DNA of 39,121 bases from a virus: IMG/VR virus record IMGVR_UViG_3300039056_000005, positions 1-39,121 of that record. One strand, 5' to 3'. Below are positions 10,988-39,121 of this stretch, piece by piece. Made by a program: the position numbers and the translations under genes. The first letter of the stretch is position 1, and every line of letters starts with the position of its first letter. Below the pieces are notes generated by a model. That model was not told where the DNA came from, did no database searches, and saw only the letters and a list, made by a program, of their open reading frames with translations.

Positions 10988-12607
10988 CTATGCGCCAAGC
11001 CAACCACCAGGGCCAGGACTGTGGGCTTTCCTGGCTGGCTTTGGTTTCTCGTCTTTCCAGTTTAGCCCCATCTGTTGGAGCGCGTCGGTGTAGTTGGTGG
11101 CCCACTTCGGGCCTACAGTATCCTTGAAGGTTTCGTTGTCGTGGTCCCATTCCCGGCGCAACGCCTTGATGGCCTTCCACCCGGTGTGGTTCGCCATATC
11201 GCCCTGGTTCCCGGAAATGTCAGTGTCACAGCGTACCTTGTCGATCCAGATACGGGGAAACAGCTTCTTCAAGGCGTTGATGGATTCCCGTTTGTTCTTC
11301 ACCCGTGGCACAGTCTTGAACTTAATGCCCATCCGTTTGGCGGTCTGCAGTCGGCGCTCACCCGACATAAGCTCCCGGACCTCGATATCGTGAGGCGCCA
11401 TGTGTTCACCAAACCGGATTCCGTACTTGTCCCGGAAGTCATGCAGCCAGTTGATGTAATGCTCCATGCCCTCATCCCGGTTACCGTAACAGGCAATGCA
11501 ACGGATCTCCTTCTGGTGTACCTGAACCAGCCAGATTGCCATATCGTCGTTGATACCAAGATCCCAATAGGTGTGAACGGGCAGGCTTTTCTCAACGGGG
11601 ATGTTGGTAAGGCGGCTTTCCTCGAGCAATAGCTCAACCTCAGTCTTATACACCACGCCTTCCGCCAGGGCATCGTCCGGTGACTGCTGGTATTGGGCAC
11701 TGAACATATAGTTGTCGGCTTTTTCCATGGCAAGCAGTGTCTCCGTGGGCTCTTTCTCTGGCCAGTAGCTGACACGCTTGCCGGTAAATCCGGTGTCACG
11801 TATGCAGGCTTCCCGCATTTCGTCACTCAGCTGGTCCAGGTAACTGCGGTCGATTATGGCAGGGATCTTGAACAGCTGGTAATTGTCCGGGCTTTTATCG
11901 CTGTTCAGGTAGTCGGTGCTGTCGCCCTTGGCTATCCGCTGCTGCACCATGATGATGGGCACGTTGTCGTGTGCCAGGCGGGAGCGAACGATACGGTTGA
12001 TACGCTTGTTGCCCTTGTCGATCAGCCGGCCACTCTCGGCGTCCTTGGGCGGCAATGGATCATCCATTACCAGTGCCCCGGTGAATCCTTCCTCCATGAA
12101 TCCAGCACGGCGGCCTGTTACCTGGCCATTGATGCTGGTGCCGTACAGCCGGTGCTGGTTGCCATGCTGGTCGATGTACTTCCAGTTGTGCTTGGCCTTG
12201 GTGTCCTTGGATGGCGTCAGCGGCCATAGAGTCTGGAATTCCTCACTGTCCAGGATCTCCTTCACCCGGGTCGCGTTCTCGGTCACCAGGTCGTCGGAGT
12301 AGGAAAGCGGGAGCCATCGTGTCGATCGCTTCTCAGATATGCACTTGAGGATGCACCAACACGGCCAGTGGATGGACCATATCTCTGTCTTTGTGCTACC
12401 GGGCGCCACGTTGACGATTCCCCGGGGGATCTCCATACGGTAAACGGATTCGGCCAGGCGGCATTCATAGGTGTGGTGCCAATTCTTGCGGAACTTCTGG
12501 CCCTGCAGTAGCTGGAAGAAGATACGCATAAACGCTTCAAAGGATGCTTCACTGGCCACCTTCACGGCCAGCTTCTCCGCGTCCGTCATTTCCTCCCACT
12601 TCAGCAT
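10988..12607 (-). CDS. terL: Terminase large subunit (packaging ATPase-nuclease), 539 aa
   Basis: The ATPase half has a Walker A variant APGSTKT at residues 68-74, and the Walker B strand ALVMDD at 178-183 is followed by a proline pair, as in Terminase_6-type proteins. The nuclease half begins near residue 345 with YWDLGINDDMAIW, where Asp349 is a likely metal ligand of the RNase H-like fold. The protein pumps DNA into the procapsid through the portal and cuts the concatemer. It starts sharing one base with the small-subunit stop codon and ends ten bases before the portal start. The P22-like module suggests headful packaging, which would also explain a circularly permuted genome. Confidence 0.92.
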   Translation of the reverse strand: MLKWEEMTDAEKLAVKVASEASFEAFMRIFFQLLQGQKFRKNWHHTYECRLAESVYRMEIPRGIVNVAPGSTKTEIWSIHWPCWCILKCISEKRSTRWLPLSYSDDLVTENATRVKEILDSEEFQTLWPLTPSKDTKAKHNWKYIDQHGNQHRLYGTSINGQVTGRRAGFMEEGFTGALVMDDPLPPKDAESGRLIDKGNKRINRIVRSRLAHDNVPIIMVQQRIAKGDSTDYLNSDKSPDNYQLFKIPAIIDRSYLDQLSDEMREACIRDTGFTGKRVSYWPEKEPTETLLAMEKADNYMFSAQYQQSPDDALAEGVVYKTEVELLLEESRLTNIPVEKSLPVHTYWDLGINDDMAIWLVQVHQKEIRCIACYGNRDEGMEHYINWLHDFRDKYGIRFGEHMAPHDIEVRELMSGERRLQTAKRMGIKFKTVPRVKNKRESINALKKLFPRIWIDKVRCDTDISGNQGDMANHTGWKAIKALRREWDHDNETFKDTVGPKWATNYTDALQQMGLNWKDEKPKPARKAHSPGPGGWLGA

Positions 12608-29132: not shown

Positions 29133-29142
29133 ATTATAGCCT
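29133..29142 (-). promoter_or_regulatory. Candidate promoter box before the tailspike
   Basis: AGGCTATAAT on the leftward strand, containing a perfect TATAAT, lies at the stop codon of the giant gene and about 25 bases before the tailspike start. The same ten bases occur before the scaffold gene. No good -35 box is seen, so an activator may be needed, or the match may be chance. Confidence 0.4.
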
Positions 29143-32100
29143 ACGGCATTTCGTCATGTACTTGCTCCAGGGCATCCTTGGCCTGGCGGTAAAATTTCTC
29201 AAGAGCCCGGTTTTTCTGCTCATAGTAGCTTTCAATCGCTGATTCTTTCTGCTCGGCAGTCATGTTCTCGTTGTACTTGTACGAGGCTATGATTTCCTGC
29301 TGATCGTCAAAAGCATTGTCGATCTGACTGAAGGCGCCATTCAGGCCAATCAGGATCTGGTTCACCTTATCCCCGGCAAACTCCGGCGCCTTGGATGGAT
29401 CACGGATGGCCTCACGCTGCAGCATGTTGAACGTCTGCTGTGCGGCGGCGGCCTTTACCTTCAGATCCCAATAGCCTTCTGTCCATTTTGTCCGGTATGG
29501 CACTTTCTGGCCAACGAACTGGTGCGTCATGTAATCAATCGGCGCGCCCCGGTTGAACGGGCGCGGCCCCCAATCGTCCTGCTTCCACAGGGCGGCCTCT
29601 GACGCATCGGCAATAATCATCTCCACATAGCGCAGAAATCCCTTGCTGTAGTGCTCTGCCACCAACGGTGATACCCCCAGGTATTCACCCAGCTTGCGGT
29701 ACATGATGGGCGTGCGGTCGGTGTACTGGTATTCAGCCGGGATATCCATCATGTAATGCGGCACCACGGGCGCCCCGGTGAACTTCTCATTGCGCTGAAC
29801 TTCTACCCAGGGCTGAAGGATACCGGGATAATCCCCGATACCAACGGTGTTCACCAGGGCCCATGCCAGGTGTTCGGATGCTTCTTTTCCGTCCCTTTTC
29901 TTCACATAGTCCAGGCCTACTTCCGGCAACGTGGCAAAGATATGGCCAAGGTCATACGGGCGAGGGATCTTGAACGGCGTGTCGGCGCCGGGGATGAAGA
30001 TCCACCAGAAGCGGGCTTTCTGGTCTGGCGTCAGCTGCTGGTACCGCTCATCATCCTGGTTCAGCAACCACAAGATCACACTCATCATGGTCAGCACACT
30101 GCCTTTCATCAGGAACACGGCTTTTTTATCAGTCATGCGTGCCAGGTTGGTGCCTTTCATTTCCCCGCGGATCTCGGAAAATTCCCGGGCGGCCTTGTCC
30201 AGCCCCTGAATGCCGGCGTTCATAAACGGCACGGTGCGCAGGAACTTGGCCCACAACTCATTGCGGCCCATCTTGCTAAAGTCGGTAGCGATCTCCCTGG
30301 CCTCCCAGGCGGCCTCCATCGGTGACGTGCCTTTCTTCACACCCAACTCATAATCACCAATGCGCGAACCGTACTCGAAAGCGCTGGTGAAGCGGTCCCA
30401 GCCGGCCAGGAACTTTGCGGCCGCATCCCAGCCGGATTCGCTCGGCAGGTCCAGCCGGCGCCGGTCGCGGGTTTCCTGTGTCCGGGCCTCGATCCTGGTA
30501 CCGTAACCGCCACCCTGCAGCCGGAATTCCTTGTAGATCTTGGTATTGAACATGAAGTGCCCCATGCCCTTGAGCGTGCTGTAGACCGGAATGAATCGGT
30601 TGCGGCTCATAATGGCGGAACTGACAGTATCCCTGACGGCGTTCGGCCCCAGGAACTGGAACATGCTGGTAACCGTCCGGGTCTGCAGGTTCTTCACCCG
30701 GTACAGAGCATTCATCACGGCGCCACTGCGAAGCCCGCTCAGGCCGGTGAGCATATCCACCAGCAACGGCTCATGCACTTCAAAGTACACCCGCTTGCCA
30801 TTCACCACGGCGCTGTCCACGTAGGTTTCCGTGGTCTGCGGCTTGTGCCCGAAGGTCCAGAAACTCAGCAATGCCGGGTTGGCTTCCAGGGCGGCGGCGA
30901 TATCCTCCACGTCCGTCACCTGTGCGTCCGGATCTCCGGCCATAATCATGCCGTCCTTGCTCACGGTCAGCCCCATTTCCGCCATGGCCTCGGCCATCTT
31001 GGCGGCCATCTGTGCCTGCTCAACCTGCACCTTCTTGCTGTCCGGTGCGATCTTCGCGGCAAACAGGGCGCCGTCCTGGCTGTTCATAATGTCGTTGTAG
31101 AGCGTTGCCTTGGCGCGGGCGATAATGGCGGCCCGTATATTCGATTGCAGGCTTTCGACAATGTTTTCTGCTATTTCCCGAGTGTTTTGATACCCACCCC
31201 TTAGCTGACTTTGTATGTCACCAGCGCCCATTTCGTGGCCATCCTCAATGCGCTGAATTACACGATGGAACGGCACGTAGTTCTGGTTCATCTTCTTGAA
31301 AGCTCGGCGCTGGCTTTCGTCAATCAGCCCCATCTGCACGTAGAAATCCAGCATCCTGCCATTGAACTTCTGGAACTCATCGAACACCTGCGGGAATTCC
31401 GGGTATTTCTGGCCCAGGGCAAGGCCGGCGTCAATCTCCTGGTCGGTGAAAAGGTTTTCTCGGCCCTGCTTCATCAGTTCCTGGCCTCGTCTGGCCTTAA
31501 AATACTCCATAAGAGCATCAAACCTTGGCCACCCGTGTTTGGCCACTGGCTTAAACACCTCATTCAATCCCTTTCCGCTGAACTCAAAGTAACCATCTTC
31601 AGTAAGCCTTGGCGTGCCGTCTTTCATGACGGCCTCATGCACGGATTCGGCGCCGTTCAGCATCTGGAACTGCTTGTACGGGCTCACCATGGCTTCGCCA
31701 ACTTCGCCCTTCAGCGTGCGCTCAACCACCTTGGCAGCATGGATCTTGTCAATCACCTGCTGACGATACCGCTCCAGTGGGTAACTGCTCTGGTATTCGA
31801 TTATCTGCTGCCTAGGCGTTAGCTCACGGCCAGACTTGGCCCGAAACTGTGCCCGTGGCCCCTGCAGGTACCAGCGGTGCATTTCGTCCTGCAGGCGCTT
31901 CATCTTGCGATCCAGCACGGCATCATCTTTCATCACCTGTTCAAACCTCTGCGTGAACAGTGGTGCCCTGGCCTTGGCCTCGCTGTAGTTGGTCAGCCAC
32001 AGGCGCACGAACTCGGCAAAACCTTCCTTGGCCTTCAGGTTCTTCTTGCTGGTGTAGCTCAACGCCTCCACTTCCTTGCGGTATTTGCTGTCCTTGTACT

Positions 32101-35100
32101 CCCGGGTAAACCGCTTGTTGTAGCGGTAGTGCATATCCAGGTAGTGCGCCATTTCGTGCGCCATCACCTCTACATTGTCGTAGCTCTTCACCCGCACTTC
32201 GCTGTTGTTGCTTCGGTAAAAGCCCAGCTTTGACTTGCCCTGGACTTTTCCGAAGTAGATACGCTTTCCAATCAGATCCTGCAGCATGAACCGGATACCC
32301 TCACGGCGGGTCGGTTTTTCCTCCGGCTTCAGGGTTACGGTGCGATCCCCAATCTTGAATTTGCTGTTGTCCGGGCGCCGTGGCACGCCTGTCATGCTGT
32401 ACGGTGGCTGCCACTTAGGCATGGGTACATCGGCCCCCATATCGCTCATCATGGCGCTGGTGGCGTCCTGGCTGGTGGCGTCCTGGTCCTTTTTGGGCTG
32501 CAGCTCGGCAATCACCAGCTGGTGGCGGGCCTTAACCTTTGACAATTCCTCGGCCTGGTCCCACTCCTGCACCTGTTCTTCCAGCTTTGGCAGATCCCTT
32601 TCGGCCTGCTTCACCCGGGCGGCCTGCTGTTTGGCCTCGGCGTCGATGGCTGAAATGGTGTTGGCCACCCTGCGCGCCAGGCCGGTGGCATCGGCGCTGC
32701 CGATATCCTTGATATCCACCTGGTGTTCCAAGGCGCCGTCCAGGGTCAGCACAAACCGTGTTCCGGTGACATTATCCAGGGTCATATCAAAACCGGCATA
32801 GCTGCCAATGGCCTTGGATTCGGTACCGGCGTCTGACATTTTCGCGGCTTCCGCCAGGATCTCCTGGCCGGCGTCCTTGTGCTTGTCGAACGTCTGGCCA
32901 TTCACGGTGATACTGAAGTCTTTGGGCGCGGCCTTGGCCTTCTTCACGTCCTGAGCGTACTTCAGCAAGCGATCCTTGCCCCGCTCCACAATAGATTTTT
33001 CGCGGCGGATGGCGTCACGGATGCGGAACTGTTCGCGGTCGTGTTCTTCCTCGGCCTGTTCCAGCTTTCGCAGTTTCTGGCGAAGATCCATTTCTTCCAG
33101 GATCAGCGGATTGCCACTTGATGCCGCTTTCATCTCGGCGGCGTTGGCTGATTCCGCTCCCAAGTCCTCGATCTCGCGCTGTTTGGTGTTGCCCTTGCGC
33201 ACCTGCTCGATAAACCGAGCCTTGGTTTCGATGGTCTGCCACATGCGGCTGTCCAGCGTCTGCTTGGTGGCGTAGCGGTTGATCTCGATTTCAAAGCCAT
33301 TCGGGTCACGGTCGTACAACTCGTTACCCTGGCGGATAATCCGGCCTTCCCGCTGTTCCAGGTCTGACGGCCTCCACGGTGCATCCATGTGGTGGAGCCC
33401 CACCAGGCGGGTCTGCACGTTCATGCCGGCGCCCATCTTGGCAGTGGAGCCCATCAGCACGCGAACACGGCCTGTGCGCACCTTGGCGAACAATTCAGCC
33501 TTCTGCAGCTCGGTGTTGGCATCGTGGATATAGGCCACTTCCGATTCCGGTATGCCTAGGTTAATCAGCTTCTGGCGCAAGTCGTCATACACACTGAAGT
33601 CGCCATCCAGGGCTTCCAGCTCGTCCGGGCTCATGCGGTCCAGCTGTTCGCTGGCGGCCTCGTCGCCATCCTCGGCACGTTGGATCAGGTCACGGATTCT
33701 GTTGGCTTCCTGCGCCTTGGCGCCCTTGGGCGTACTCAGGTCGATGAATACCAGCTGCGCACCCTTGTCGTCGGCCCACTGGTCGTACAGTGTTTTAATC
33801 CGGCTGGCGGCCTCGTTGATCTTGCTGTCTGGGTTGTCGACGTACAATGCCGGGTCGATCAGGCGCATATCCAGGGCGGCCTTCCGGGCATCGCTCATAA
33901 TCTTGAGCATGTTGTCGGCGCCCTTCTCCGGCTTCTTCGGCAGGTGTTCAGCACGCCATACCAGTGAGCCCTTCGGATAAACCTCGTTGCCCCGCTCATC
34001 CTGAACGGGCACGCCAATGTAATCGGCCTGGTCCTTGCTGCGCTCCACAACAATGTTATTCGGCTTCCCGCCCTTGATCTTCGGTACCGGAAGGCGCTTG
34101 CCCTGTGCCGCCAGCTGCTTGTTGATATCGTCGCGGTTTACCACGTCACCAAAGGTCAGGTACCGCTGCATCAGCTCGGGCAGGTTCACGAACTTTCTGA
34201 AACGGCTGTTCAGCTTGTAGCTGCCCGTTGGTGACAGCTCCCAATCGGTGACCACTTCCCCGTACATGCGTGCCCAGGCATCGAAGTGTGCAATGCCCTG
34301 GTCCTGCAGGGTCTGGTAATCCAGGAACCGCTGCATCGTATACATTTCCGCCATGGTGTTGCTGATTGGCGTGCCGGTGGCGAATACCACGTTGTTGCCG
34401 CCAGTGCGCTCCAGGATGGATTGCACCTTCATAAACATATCGGCGGCCTTCTGGCTGCCCTGCGGGTTACCCAGGCCGGCAACGCGGGTCATGCTGGTGG
34501 CAAAGCCCAGGTTCTTGAACTCATGGGCTTCATCCAGGAACAGGGCATCCACACCCAATTCACCAAAGGTCAGGTTATCGTCCTTGTTCTCGGCATCGAA
34601 CAGGCGCTTCAGCCTTTCCTGAAGGCGCTCTTTCTGCTTCTCGATCTGCTTGATGGACCGGGCGCCCTTGCCTTCCTGGTCGCGGATAGTGGAAATGGCG
34701 GTGTCGATATCCCGGATCTGCTGGTTGATAAACCGTTCCTGGAACTCGGCATCCATTTCGACCTTGCCAAACGAGGAATGCGCCACAATCACGGCGTCCC
34801 AATCCCCGGTGGCGATCCTGGCGAACAGGCGCTTACGGTTACCCTTCTCAAAGTCTTTCTTGGTGGCGGCCAGAATGTTGGCGTTGGGATACAGCTTGGT
34901 GAAATCCTCGGCCCACTGGCCCACCAGGTGATTCGGTACCGCGAACATGGGCTTTTTGGCGCGGCCTGTCCGGCGTAGCTCCATGGCCCCGGCGATCATG
35001 GTGAAGGTTTTGCCGGCGCCCACTACGTGATCCAGCAACGTGGTACCGCTCTGCACAATCCGCCAGGCGGCATTGGCCTGGTGCGGACGCAACTTCACAA

Positions 35101-38100
35101 TGTCGTCGCCCACCTTGCCAGGGAACGTCAGGTGCGAACCGTCATACTTCCGCACGCGGTCGGTGTTGAAGGTGTCGTTGTAGAGTCGAACTAGGCGATT
35201 ACGGCGGGCATCGTCTTTCCAGATCCAGCGGCGGAACTCCGCTTTCACCCGTTGAATCTTCTCGTTGGCGGCGTTGGTGGCGGATTCGTTGATAACGGTG
35301 GTGTTTTCGTCCACTCGATCCCGAATCACTATGCTCTTGTCGTTTGCCGCGGCGGTCAAAATATCGCTCACCTGCGCACGGTCGGTACCGTACTGGCTTT
35401 CGGCGGCGGTTGTCGGGCTGCCTTTGATGTTCCACTTGGCCATTACCGGGTTGTAGGTTGCCTTGCCGCTGGCGTTACCCAGGATATGGTCGGCAAACTC
35501 GGTCACCACTTCCGGCGGCAACCAGTGGGCGCCAGGCTTCACCCGGATATCGACGGCTTCAATGTCCTCCGGCTGCACATCCTTCAGGGCCTGCACGTTG
35601 CGCTCAAAGCGCGGCATATCCTTCGCCATGCGCTCGGCCATGGCCAGCTTCTGCTTCACGTTGCCGGACAGGTATTCGTCGCGGGATTCCCAATTATTGG
35701 GCGTACTCTCGAAAACCAGGTCGCCCAGCTCGGCCACAATGGCGCTTTCCGTCTTGCCGTACAGTTGGCTCATGTACTTCATATCCACCCGGCCCTTTTC
35801 GGACAGGCTGGCGGTCAGTGCATCCTTGGCGGTGGTGGCTTTCTCCGGCGCCTTGTAGGGCTGCTGTGTCCGGGTCCGGAAGATGGCGGCCTTCTCGGCG
35901 CTCGGCTTGCGCGGGGTTTCCCCGGTGCGCTTGGCCACGGTCGGGCTGATACCCTTATCAAAGGATTCTTCCAGGGCGGCCAGCTGCGGCCAGGTTGGAT
36001 CATCCCGGAATAGGCGCTTGTTGGCATCCAGGTTGATGGGTCCGTTCTTCTTTACAAACTGGTCATACACCCGGTTGAGTCGGTCACGCAGTGCGCCCAG
36101 GGCCTCGTCCTTCACGTTTTCGGTCAGCTGCGCCTTACGCAGATCCGCGAACACGTCACGGACCTTAATCAGACCACGCACCCGTTCTTCGGCCTTTTTG
36201 CTCGGCATTTCCACGGGCTCAGACCGGGCCTGCCCCATTTCGCTTTCCAGGCGGATGCTGATCTGGTCGCCATCCAGGAACATGCTGCCCACCTTCACGT
36301 TCTCCACGCTGGTCGGCAGGGTTACTTCCTCGGATACCGGCTCAGTGGTGGCGGCGTCCATAAAGTCTTTTGGCAGGCTGGCCAGGGCTTCCTGCAGTAG
36401 CGCGTTGGTGTCTTGCCCCTGCCTTGCCACCAGGGCAGGCTCATTCGGCCCGTACATCGAACCGTAGGCGCCCCATTCACCCAGCATCATCCCCGGATTG
36501 CGGTCGAAGTATTCGTTTAACGGTACCTCGATACCCTTGGCATCCTTCACGGTGTTGACCACGGACCAGGATTCACCAGACGGCTGCTCTCCCTCCCGGC
36601 GCTTACGCAGAAAGATGATATCGGTAGTGACTTCGGTGCCGGCGTTCTTCAGGAATGCGTTGTTCGGCAGTCTCACAGCGCCCAGCAAGTCGGCACGCTC
36701 GGCCAGGTAATCACGCGCCATCTTGTTGTTGCCGTCCATCAGGCGGCTCGATACCACCATGGCCAGCACGCCATTGGGTTTCAGGCCGGCCATAGATTTG
36801 GCGAAGAAGTAATTGTGAATGCTCATTTTCGACAAGGCTTTGCGCTTGCCGTCATACAGCTTCTGATTGCCAAACGGCGGGTTACCAATGGCCAGGTCAA
36901 AATAGCCATCCGGCATGTTGAACTCTTGAAAGCCCATCGGTGCCTGAATGTTGGCGCCAGGGTACAGCTTCTGCGCAATGCCCCCGGTGATATGGTCCAG
37001 CTCCACCCCGGCAATGCTGCTCTTGGATCTCACGCCACCCGGCATGAATCCCAGGAAGTTGCCGGTACCAACGGATGGTTCCAGCACGCGGCCACCCTGA
37101 AAGCCCATGTTCTTCACGGCCTTCCAGATCTCGGTGACAATCTCCGGGCTGGTGTAGTGGGCATCCTGCGTACTGCGGCGAGCGGCGTCATATTCTGCTT
37201 CGGTCAAGGCCTCCTGCAGCTGTTTGGCCTCCTTCTCCCAGCCCTTGGTGATCTTGCCGCGGTCACCCACAAAGGCTTGAGGCAGGCCACCCCAGCCCAC
37301 ATAGCCGGCCAGGATCTGCTGTTCCTCCGGTGTGGCCTGGCGGCCTTCTTCGTTCAGCTGCTTCAGTGTCTGGATGGCTTTCAGGTTGTTCTTGAACTTG
37401 GTTTTGGCCCCGCCAGCACCAATGTTCATTTCCGGCGTCAGTGTGAAGAACTTGGCCGGCCTGTCGCCTGCTGGCTCTGCTCTCTGCGTTGTTGCGCCTT
37501 TTGGCGTTGGCGCCTTCTTTGCCGCTTTTTCTGTCGCATCTACGCTTCCCTCAGATCCTCGGGTTGCGGGCTGTCTGCTTCCAGCGTCCTGCTCATCGTC
37601 TGCAGGGCGTCGCTCAGTATCGCGGGTCCGTTGCCCGCCGGCTTGTCGTTCTCCGGTTCCCCCGGTGGAAACAGGTACGTTTCCCTCACCATCTGAAACG
37701 CCTCGTCCGGCTGGTACCCCGCTTCCTCCAGCTCGATCACCTGCTGGTACGTCTGTTCCGCTGCCTGTTTCAGCATCGGGTCCAGCGTCCCCTGCTTCTT
37801 CAGGCTCTGATACAGCTTCGGCCTGTTCTCCTTCCAGTGTTCTCTGGCCTGGTTGATCCAGTTCTGCAGGTTCATCCTGTGTTACCTCCGATGGTCGCTC
37901 GGCAGTGTCACCCGGCGTACCTTGGTCCCGGGCGGCAGGCTGGCTAGAAACTCCGGCGTCACCTCCGGACCTTGTGACGCCTGGCGGGGTTTCGCCTCGG
38001 CCTGCTCGTTGCCCGGTGCGCTCCCGCTCTGCCTTTTGGGCTTGTAGCCCTCGTTCTGCTGCTTCGATCGTTTCCGCTGTGCCATAACTCAGCCCTATTC

Positions 38101-39104
38101 CACGCTTGGTGATTACCTCACCACTCGGTAGCTCAAATTCAATAATAGCGTTTTCCAACTCTGCAGCCACTTCCTGCATCAGCTGTTCCGCTTCCTGTTG
38201 GGTATTGGCCTGCACCCAAAACTCATCACCACTCGGATGATACGCATCGGCGCCCTTTGCTTTGAATGCGCGGCCAATGGCCTGCAGCATCTGATCCCCG
38301 GCGCCGTGGCTCATGTTGTCGTTGATCCACTTCAGGGAATCGGCGTCAACTGATACCTGTACAGGCTTGCGCTCGTTTTCCTCATAGGCGCGGCGGTTGC
38401 CCAGGCCGGTTAGATCATCCTCAAGCAGTGCCTGGCGCATTTCGTCCTGTGTCATTTCAGCGACACGGCGGCGGGTTTGCGGGTCTTGTCGGCGCTCTAC
38501 GTTCGCCACGCCATCACCCTTTCTATCTTTTGCCTGAGCCAGTGCTTCAAGCGCGTTATCCCAATTTCCGGATATCGGCGTATCTCCTTCAGCATCAAAT
38601 GCTTGGAATGTATCGTCCCTGCGATCCTGAATCAGTTTTATACCGGGATCGTCGGTGTAATACGTGTAGATATCGAGAGGATCTTGCCAAACCTTGCCAG
38701 CCTTTCCTTGGAAATCAGGAAATTGGCCGTCTTTAATCTTGTTTGGCGTTTGGCCATCATAGCGCCGTTTGGTGGTTGCGGGCTCTGGCGCCGGAATATC
38801 CGCCAGCATCTGCCTGGCCTGATCGGCTCGCATATCCCACAACTGCGCATCAGTCACCCCGGCATCCCGCAACTGGTTGCGCTCAAACGGCGTCAGATCA
38901 TCAGCGGCCTGCCCGGTTTCCTGCCCGGCTTCTTGCTCAGGCTCTGGCCGGTCTGCTTCTTCCGGCGGCCTCACTGGCTGCAGCGGTACGTTCATATCCT
39001 GCGGCATTGCACCCTGGCGCGGCGCGATATCAATGCCCCGTTCTTTCAGCTTCTGCGCTACCAGGTCACCCATAGTCGGGCGCTCTGGTGCCCGTACCTT
39101 CTCA
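29141..39104 (-). CDS. Giant polyvalent protein: GGDEF, DNA methylase, SF2 helicase, zincin and C-terminal ejection-type domain (partial, 5' end missing)
   Basis: The frame is open from the primer tag to a TAG at 29141; the first Met (39073) has no ribosome site, so this is the rest of a longer gene. Numbered from that Met (3,310 residues): GGDEF domain 215-350 (DLTGLGNRR 220-228, SGDEF 281-285); disordered linker 350-540; adenine methylase 590-830 (EPSVGTGNF 665-673, NPPFG 731-735); SF2/SNF2 helicase 1325-1950 (GAGKT 1352-1356, DEAH 1514-1517, ATGTP 1565-1569, QREGRIIRQG 1907-1916); coiled coils about 1990-2190; zincin HEMAH 2306-2310 with likely third ligand Glu2354 in GFAEFVRLW; long C-terminal domain 2440-3310 (NAVRDT, hydrophobic helix 2990-3004). 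Methylase-helicase fusions such as P1 DarB protect incoming DNA; large phage polyvalent proteins are thought to be ejected with it. Confidence 0.9.
37540..37875 (-). CDS. Overprinted gene nested in the giant gene, 111 aa
   Basis: In a second frame of the same strand, GGAGGT lies eight bases before ATG 37873-37875. The product is a helical, normally composed protein: NLQNWINQAREHWKENRPKL, then TLDPMLKQAAEQTYQQVIEL and GYQPDEAFQMVRETYLFPPG. It reminds me of small phage proteins of the W....RP..Y..LK..G type with a VRE.YLFPPE-like end. By hand count about 83% of its codons end in G or C, like nearby genes, while the giant frame over the same bases has only about 30% in the 30 codons I counted and encodes low-complexity Gly/Ala/Pro/Glu/Arg text. 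Function unknown. It stops at 37540 (TAG). Confidence 0.6.
   Translation of the reverse strand: MNLQNWINQAREHWKENRPKLYQSLKKQGTLDPMLKQAAEQTYQQVIELEEAGYQPDEAFQMVRETYLFPPGEPENDKPAGNGPAILSDALQTMSRTLEADSPQPEDLREA
37882..38085 (-). CDS. Overprinted gene nested in the giant gene, upstream partner, 67 aa
   Basis: In the same frame as the 111-residue nested gene, ATG 38083-38085 opens a basic protein: a Lys/Arg/Gln-rich start (AQRKRSKQQNEGYKPKRQ), then VTPEFLASLPPGTKVRRV and a stop at 37882, which overlaps the next gene's GGAGGT ribosome site. About 79% of codons end in G or C. The start has only a weak site (GAGTT), so it is less certain than its partner. It could bind nucleic acid, judging from charge alone. 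It begins in codon 330 of the visible giant frame. Confidence 0.45.
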   Translation of the reverse strand: MAQRKRSKQQNEGYKPKRQSGSAPGNEQAEAKPRQASQGPEVTPEFLASLPPGTKVRRVTLPSDHRR

Positions 39105-39121
39105 GATCGTGACTGGGAAAC
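39105..39121 (-). other. Library primer tag at right end
   Basis: Reverse complement of bases 1-17. In the leftward strand it starts the window with GTTTCCCAG and reads in frame with the giant gene for five to six codons, which are artificial. Phage sequence ends at 39104. Confidence 0.9.

Follow-up and report, generated by a model that had tools for sequence, protein, structure and literature searches.

A TnpV-like gene probably nested in the +1 frame of giant DarB-like methylase-helicase genes

A 111-codon open reading frame (ORF) was identified inside a giant DarB-like gene of a virus (IMG/VR record IMGVR_UViG_3300039056_000005). The window, that is, the whole stretch of 39,121 nucleotides that was analyzed, carries both ORFs on its minus strand. 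It is close to certain from the comparisons made here that the 111-codon ORF is coding, and it is very probably a real nested gene that is translated independently of the giant. An earlier note on this DNA had placed two consecutive ORFs in one frame at this site, both within the open frame of the giant, and both were found there. Strong conservation is seen for the 111-aa ORF but not for the 67-aa ORF, and thus the comparative data decide which of them is a gene.

The phage records that were examined annotate the giant and not the small gene. The protein has therefore gone largely unannotated, although many phages and mobile elements encode it. The pair of frames also shows, in nature, strong selection on one frame next to neutrality of the other, which nevertheless has to stay stop-free, and this can be useful for studying how overlaps persist.

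The giant gene and the open frames within it

The features of the window are listed in Table 1. The giant qualifies as DarB-like, with an adenine methylase and an SNF2-type helicase fused in one giant phage ORF. It also contains an LPD38 domain in the same ORF as the GGDEF, methylase and SNF2/ResIII domains. A methylase-helicase dyad and GGDEF domains have been described in a survey of polyvalent proteins (Iyer et al., 2017, PMC5512222). The methylase region of the window giant is about 50% identical to its counterparts in many fecal records. The domain directly upstream of the nested ATG is swapped among near relatives in the manner of a cassette, and the right border of this cassette is the nested start codon. 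It contains GGDEF in the window (37890-38420) and other sequence in L014-L016. In L013 (5400-6000) and L033 it is apparently ADP-ribosyltransferase-like, as judged by eye.

Table 1. Coordinates of the giant ORF, its domains and the open frames within it
Feature	Position	Strand	Remarks
Giant DarB-like polyvalent ORF	29141..39121	minus	3326 codons within the window; possibly truncated at its 5' end by the window edge
GGDEF domain of giant (motif SGDEF)	38030..38419	minus	Pfam 4e-6; upstream of nested gene
67-aa ORF (P0002), unsupported as a gene	37882..38085	minus	Lacks homologues beyond a near-identical contig and the L013 fragment
Shine-Dalgarno site GGAGGT	37884..37889	minus	8 nt upstream of the start codon (ATG) of the 111-aa ORF
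Putative nested gene, 111-aa TnpV-like protein (P0001)	37540..37875	minus	Homologues, dN/dS 0.16, conserved ATG, 4-helix core
DNA adenine methylase module of giant	36194..37486	minus	Eco57I match within, Pfam 5.8e-11; directly downstream of nested gene
SNF2/ResIII helicase module of giant	33272..35131	minus	Pfam matches: ResIII 1.7e-9, SNF2 2.8e-6, Helicase_C 2.2e-6

The preference for G/C-ending codons that had been reported for the small ORFs, and its absence from the giant frame, were both borne out. The GC content at third positions (GC3) is 83% in the 111-aa ORF, 78% in the 67-aa ORF and 72% in the whole giant, and it is only 37% in the giant frame within the 111-aa ORF. By codon position, the GC fractions of the 111-aa ORF (0.62/0.37/0.83) are like those of the giant elsewhere (0.61/0.40/0.73), and the coding phase therefore switches at the 111-aa ORF. 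The ribosome site that had been noted for this ORF is present (Table 1). An identical site in L012 has a duplex energy of -10.8. The length of the ORF by itself is no evidence beyond chance: when the giant was shuffled synonymously, 49% of the shuffles contained an alternative-frame ORF of 111 aa or more on the same strand.

The proposal of two nested genes, both in the low-complexity linker of the giant, stood for the 111-aa ORF. The 67-aa ORF begins within the end of the GGDEF match and not in the linker. Searches with its product (tblastn in phages and a scan of IMG/VR) returned only one near-identical contig and, in L013, a match of 39 aa that lacks a start codon. Between P0002 and L013, 9 of 17 changes fall at the third position of P0002, which leans to its frame with too few changes to count. 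With recurrence limited to these two cases, P0002 was dropped as a second gene.

Homologues of the small protein and its relation to TnpV

A protein search had been suggested for both products, and for the 111-aa product it returned homologues that also occur as stand-alone genes outside the giant. By tblastn, matches were found in 21 phage records, mostly in genes annotated as a DarB-like, methylase or transglycosylase giant. The phages include VvAW1, PBC5, Atu_ph08, Pavtok, PEp14, Stean, LASTA, SJM3, SopranoGao, POI1126, Itty13, and Mwe-JY07. The record of Pseudomonas phage Itty13 (L005) annotates large reverse-strand ORFs, and both the giant and the nested gene were missed. The first pass gave 28 loci and a profile gave more than 100, at identities of 42-100%. 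IMG/VR contributed 17 loci, then 73 by profile, and bacterial contigs contributed 33. In an alignment of 23 homologues, 18 columns are invariant, beginning at Met1.

For every locus, the frames that remain open over the length of the small gene were determined. With about a dozen exceptions, the small gene is a short closed ORF within the open frame of a giant. The relative frame is constant, with giant codons always beginning at the third position of small-gene codons, and the remaining same-strand frame is short and has many stops. Once identical copies were removed, 88 distinct loci were left, each nested in this one relative frame, which was the rule by which the 88 were selected; nesting in the other frame was found at no locus. 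The host giant is typically a DarB-like methylase-SNF2 protein. The nesting recurs in phages of Proteobacteria and cyanobacteria, in verrucomicrobial chromosomes and in clostridial elements, and it is also seen in fecal 'Bacteriophage sp.' records and in Pseudomonas phage USP_25. The chromosomal methylase ORFs of L150, L151, L152, L158, L130, L131, and L129 open with a QLDLF/QLSLF-like motif, a peptide that we take to resemble the sliding-clamp binding motif.

The gene is not universal. There is no recognizable nested copy in the DarB-like giants of BcepIL02, Parlo, Pseudomonas phage 8P and Y7, or in Dfl-JY45. Profile searches found it in 3 of 399 genomes of a Burkholderiales sample and in 2 of 391 of a Clostridia sample. 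Plasmids searched with P0001 and a stand-alone relative gave no significant match.

AlphaFold predicts a 4-helix core at residues 1-72 (pLDDT >90) and a low-confidence tail. A fold search of the PDB returned nothing at E <1, and the sole match in BFVD was the PBC5 entry. PADLOC and NCBIfam gave no convincing family. Pfam TnpV (PF14198) matches 31 of 40 family members, with a best E of 1.5e-10, and hhalign aligned the family profile with TnpV at E 1.3e-5 over about 47 columns. As judged from these profiles, the 111-aa protein is a remote TnpV relative. The window protein scores 17.2 bits (E 0.005), below the curated cut-off of 27 bits, and for this reason it is named TnpV-like. Some members of the same alignment pass the cut-off, such as the copy behind L123 (L181) at 39.1 bits. 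Two other readings of the protein were rejected. A DNA mimic does not fit, as the core charge is only -8 to 0 (-3 in the window) and not strongly acidic. A match to PHROG 938 'endolysin' does not indicate a lysis function and probably reflects the upstream ORF of PBC5, which enters the small frame in that record.

TnpV is present in 27 of 60 clostridial genomes. Many of these copies are nested as well, within giants that contain methylase domains, SNF2 helicase domains or both. The relative frame agrees with that in the phages, and since there are only two such same-strand frames this agreement may be a coincidence with a chance of about one half. Their ribosome sites are of the AAAGGAG type, and the host frame is again open beyond chance. 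Other clostridial copies stand alone. Canonical TnpV was also seen nested in giants (methylase/SNF2 where checked) of clostridial and other Bacillota elements at L164, L166, L174-L178, L187, L189, and L192-L198. Tables derived from RefSeq name a 'TnpV protein' at nested positions in Cohnella and Monoglobus records. Thus the small gene is annotated in some elements, and its nesting seems to have gone unremarked. The text of the polyvalent protein survey (PMC5512222) mentions neither TnpV nor an overlapping gene, and no published description of the nesting was found in the open-licence literature, including the TnpV passages available there.

In the passages on TnpV in PMC3158075, a role in excision of Tn4451 is postulated only, from similarity to lambda Xis. 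By extension, the small protein could be an excisionase-like recombination factor with no functional link to the methylase-helicase. Some stand-alone copies do lie near integrases (L116 and L122). However, phages that have been described as virulent also carry the gene (LASTA, PMC10052179), and it is nested in a giant gene rather than beside an integrase. Its association, in phages, clostridial elements and verrucomicrobial loci alike, is with methylase/SNF2 genes. An excisionase-like factor is therefore considered unlikely, and a product connected with the methylase-helicase is preferred. The nesting in any case provides a new context for TnpV.

Selection on the two frames

Start codon and ribosome site are conserved across the nested family. 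The mean Shine-Dalgarno energy at the start sites is -6.97 kcal/mol, compared with -2.26 kcal/mol at 11,197 other ATGs (Mann-Whitney p ~1e-43). A site at -4 kcal/mol or below is present in 95% of loci and at 21% of other ATGs. Many loci also have a stop in the small frame a few codons upstream of the nested start, and read-in from far upstream is excluded at these loci.

The rate analysis in both frames that the earlier note had proposed was carried out as an OLGenie-style count over 106 close pairs, the pairs and loci being phylogenetically non-independent. Within the overlap, the small frame has a dN/dS (dNN/dSN) of 0.161 (0.11-0.22), whereas the giant frame has one of 1.04 (0.69-1.56). The methylase region of the same loci served as a control, and there the giant frame gives 0.071 and the same alternative frame 0.95 (0.74-1.20). 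The roles of the two frames are thus exchanged between the two regions, and purifying selection on the nested frame exceeds what the host frame explains. Among the close pairs, the third small-frame codon position changes most (0.123, compared with 0.044 and 0.031), and the slowest-changing position in the overlap is the wobble position of the giant. The findings against which the earlier note had set its proposal were a lack of homologues elsewhere and constraint in the giant frame only; neither was seen.

The neutrality of the giant residues in the overlap could be read as a sign that the giant is not one protein. The upstream protein, the small gene and the methylase-helicase would then be separate genes, joined by a frame that is accidentally open. 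The record of PBC5 appears split in this region, and it is the exception among the named phages, with the giant frame broken just upstream of the nested gene (L002, 8800-9001). Compared with Atu_ph08, this break is an apparent one-base difference, a sequencing error or a mutation, which would account for the split. In nearly all phage loci, however, the upstream domains and the methylase share one stop-free frame. The mean chance per locus that the giant stays stop-free under synonymous reshuffling is 0.34 with the codons of the small gene itself and 0.05 with giant usage. The giant frame is open at 88 of 88 loci, which are related and were chosen as nested, so that the product of the per-locus chances is no p-value. 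Verrucomicrobial loci lack the upstream domains, and yet their methylase ORF extends some 18-30 codons ahead of the nested gene and opens there with a conserved QLDLF-like motif. Separate genes are accordingly very unlikely. Since the giant is stop-free where reshuffling usually breaks it, both frames appear to be translated, and we infer that both products are made.

Still less probable is a programmed +1 frameshift by which the upstream half of the giant would continue into the small frame and carry it as a C-terminal extension. The upstream ORF of PBC5 does enter the small frame, which is probably why a PHROGs profile ends with the small-protein domain. Against this, the conserved ATG and Shine-Dalgarno site lie where homology begins, and stops stand directly upstream in the small frame at many loci. 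The small proteins of L013-L016 are 77-93% identical to that of the window, although the sequence upstream is wholly different, and conservation therefore starts at the ATG.

The least probable reading of all is that the small ORF is open by chance and that its conservation is a shadow of constraint on the giant. Its unremarkable length would suit this reading, which is ruled out by the codon-position rates, by the dN/dS values of the overlap with their opposite in the methylase control, and by the persistence of homologues as stand-alone genes.

Possible function, origin and comparison with known systems

In the preferred reading of a nested, independently translated gene, the small protein would be translated from its own start and ribosome site within the mRNA of the giant, and the giant would be translated straight through the nested gene. 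The giant residues in the overlap would form an unconstrained low-complexity linker, the sole requirement being the lack of stops. The 4-helix protein could serve the methylase-SNF2 dyad specifically, either as a partner or as a regulator. Co-translated from the same message, it would then arise next to its client and be passed on together with it. This is speculative, plausible but short of probable. The association with methylase/SNF2 genes agrees with it. Tn4451-like elements that have no methylase-SNF2 giant also contain canonical TnpV, which counts against the partner role. Because several DarB-like giants show no recognizable nested copy, such a partner is not obligatory for every one of them. 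The protein is nevertheless a candidate for a partner of the DarB-like antirestriction enzymes.

A tree of 74 sequences was built from only 96 columns, with long branches and an arbitrary root. In it, stand-alone copies, which were retrieved by similarity to nested ones, are scattered among the nested copies, with 10 changes, at least 5 of them forced by well-supported branches. For example, a stand-alone copy from Variovorax groups with a nested copy from Xenophilus. Because of this scatter, the nesting looks old and not like a recent fusion. The idea that small genes had lain between larger ones that were later fused was consequently not upheld, given also the same-frame nesting across phyla. 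Within the TnpV-like family, the stand-alone copies look like escapees. Tentatively, the antirestriction giants with methylase and SNF2 domains, in phages as in conjugative elements, may descend from an ancient two-in-one gene. This gene would have carried a TnpV-like regulator or partner in the +1 frame of the N-terminal region of the enzyme, its phase conserved across phyla. Free-standing copies would have escaped repeatedly, some into restriction-modification islands.

Restriction-modification neighborhoods of stand-alone copies were seen in a few anecdotal cases. The copy in L119 adjoins a full type I restriction-modification system, and that in L128 adjoins a BrxH/HmaA-like helicase and an HmaB-like methylase. 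The copy in L127 adjoins an AAA_5 ATPase, possibly McrB-like, that is fused there to a probable membrane segment.

Several known systems can be compared. TnpV of Tn4451 and clostridial elements (PF14198) is of similar small size and many of its clostridial copies are nested, whereas the window protein is under its cut-off and Tn4451-type copies stand alone. Embedded Rz/Rz1 spanin genes (PMC9144972) also place a whole gene within another, but Rz1 sits in a lysis gene. The ardD gene inside tniA (PMC3533173) is a nested antirestriction gene; it is antisense to tniA. The 111-aa gene is not known to be homologous to Rz1 or to ardD, and it is likened to both by arrangement. The Rpn antitoxins (PMC10327210) arise from an internal start in a larger nucleic-acid enzyme gene, and their small product acts with or on the enzyme. 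Type I-D Cas11d, as cited in PMC10327210, is likewise an internal-start product within a larger nucleic-acid enzyme gene. Those products are in frame and share the residues of the enzyme, whereas here the other frame encodes an unrelated protein. The host giant itself, which combines GGDEF and LPD38 with an adenine methylase and an SNF2 helicase in a single ORF, resembles the DarB-like methylase-SNF2 proteins such as DarB of phage P1, and one of these, the DarB-like gp69 of phage JC1, was found in virions by mass spectrometry (PMC9144972).
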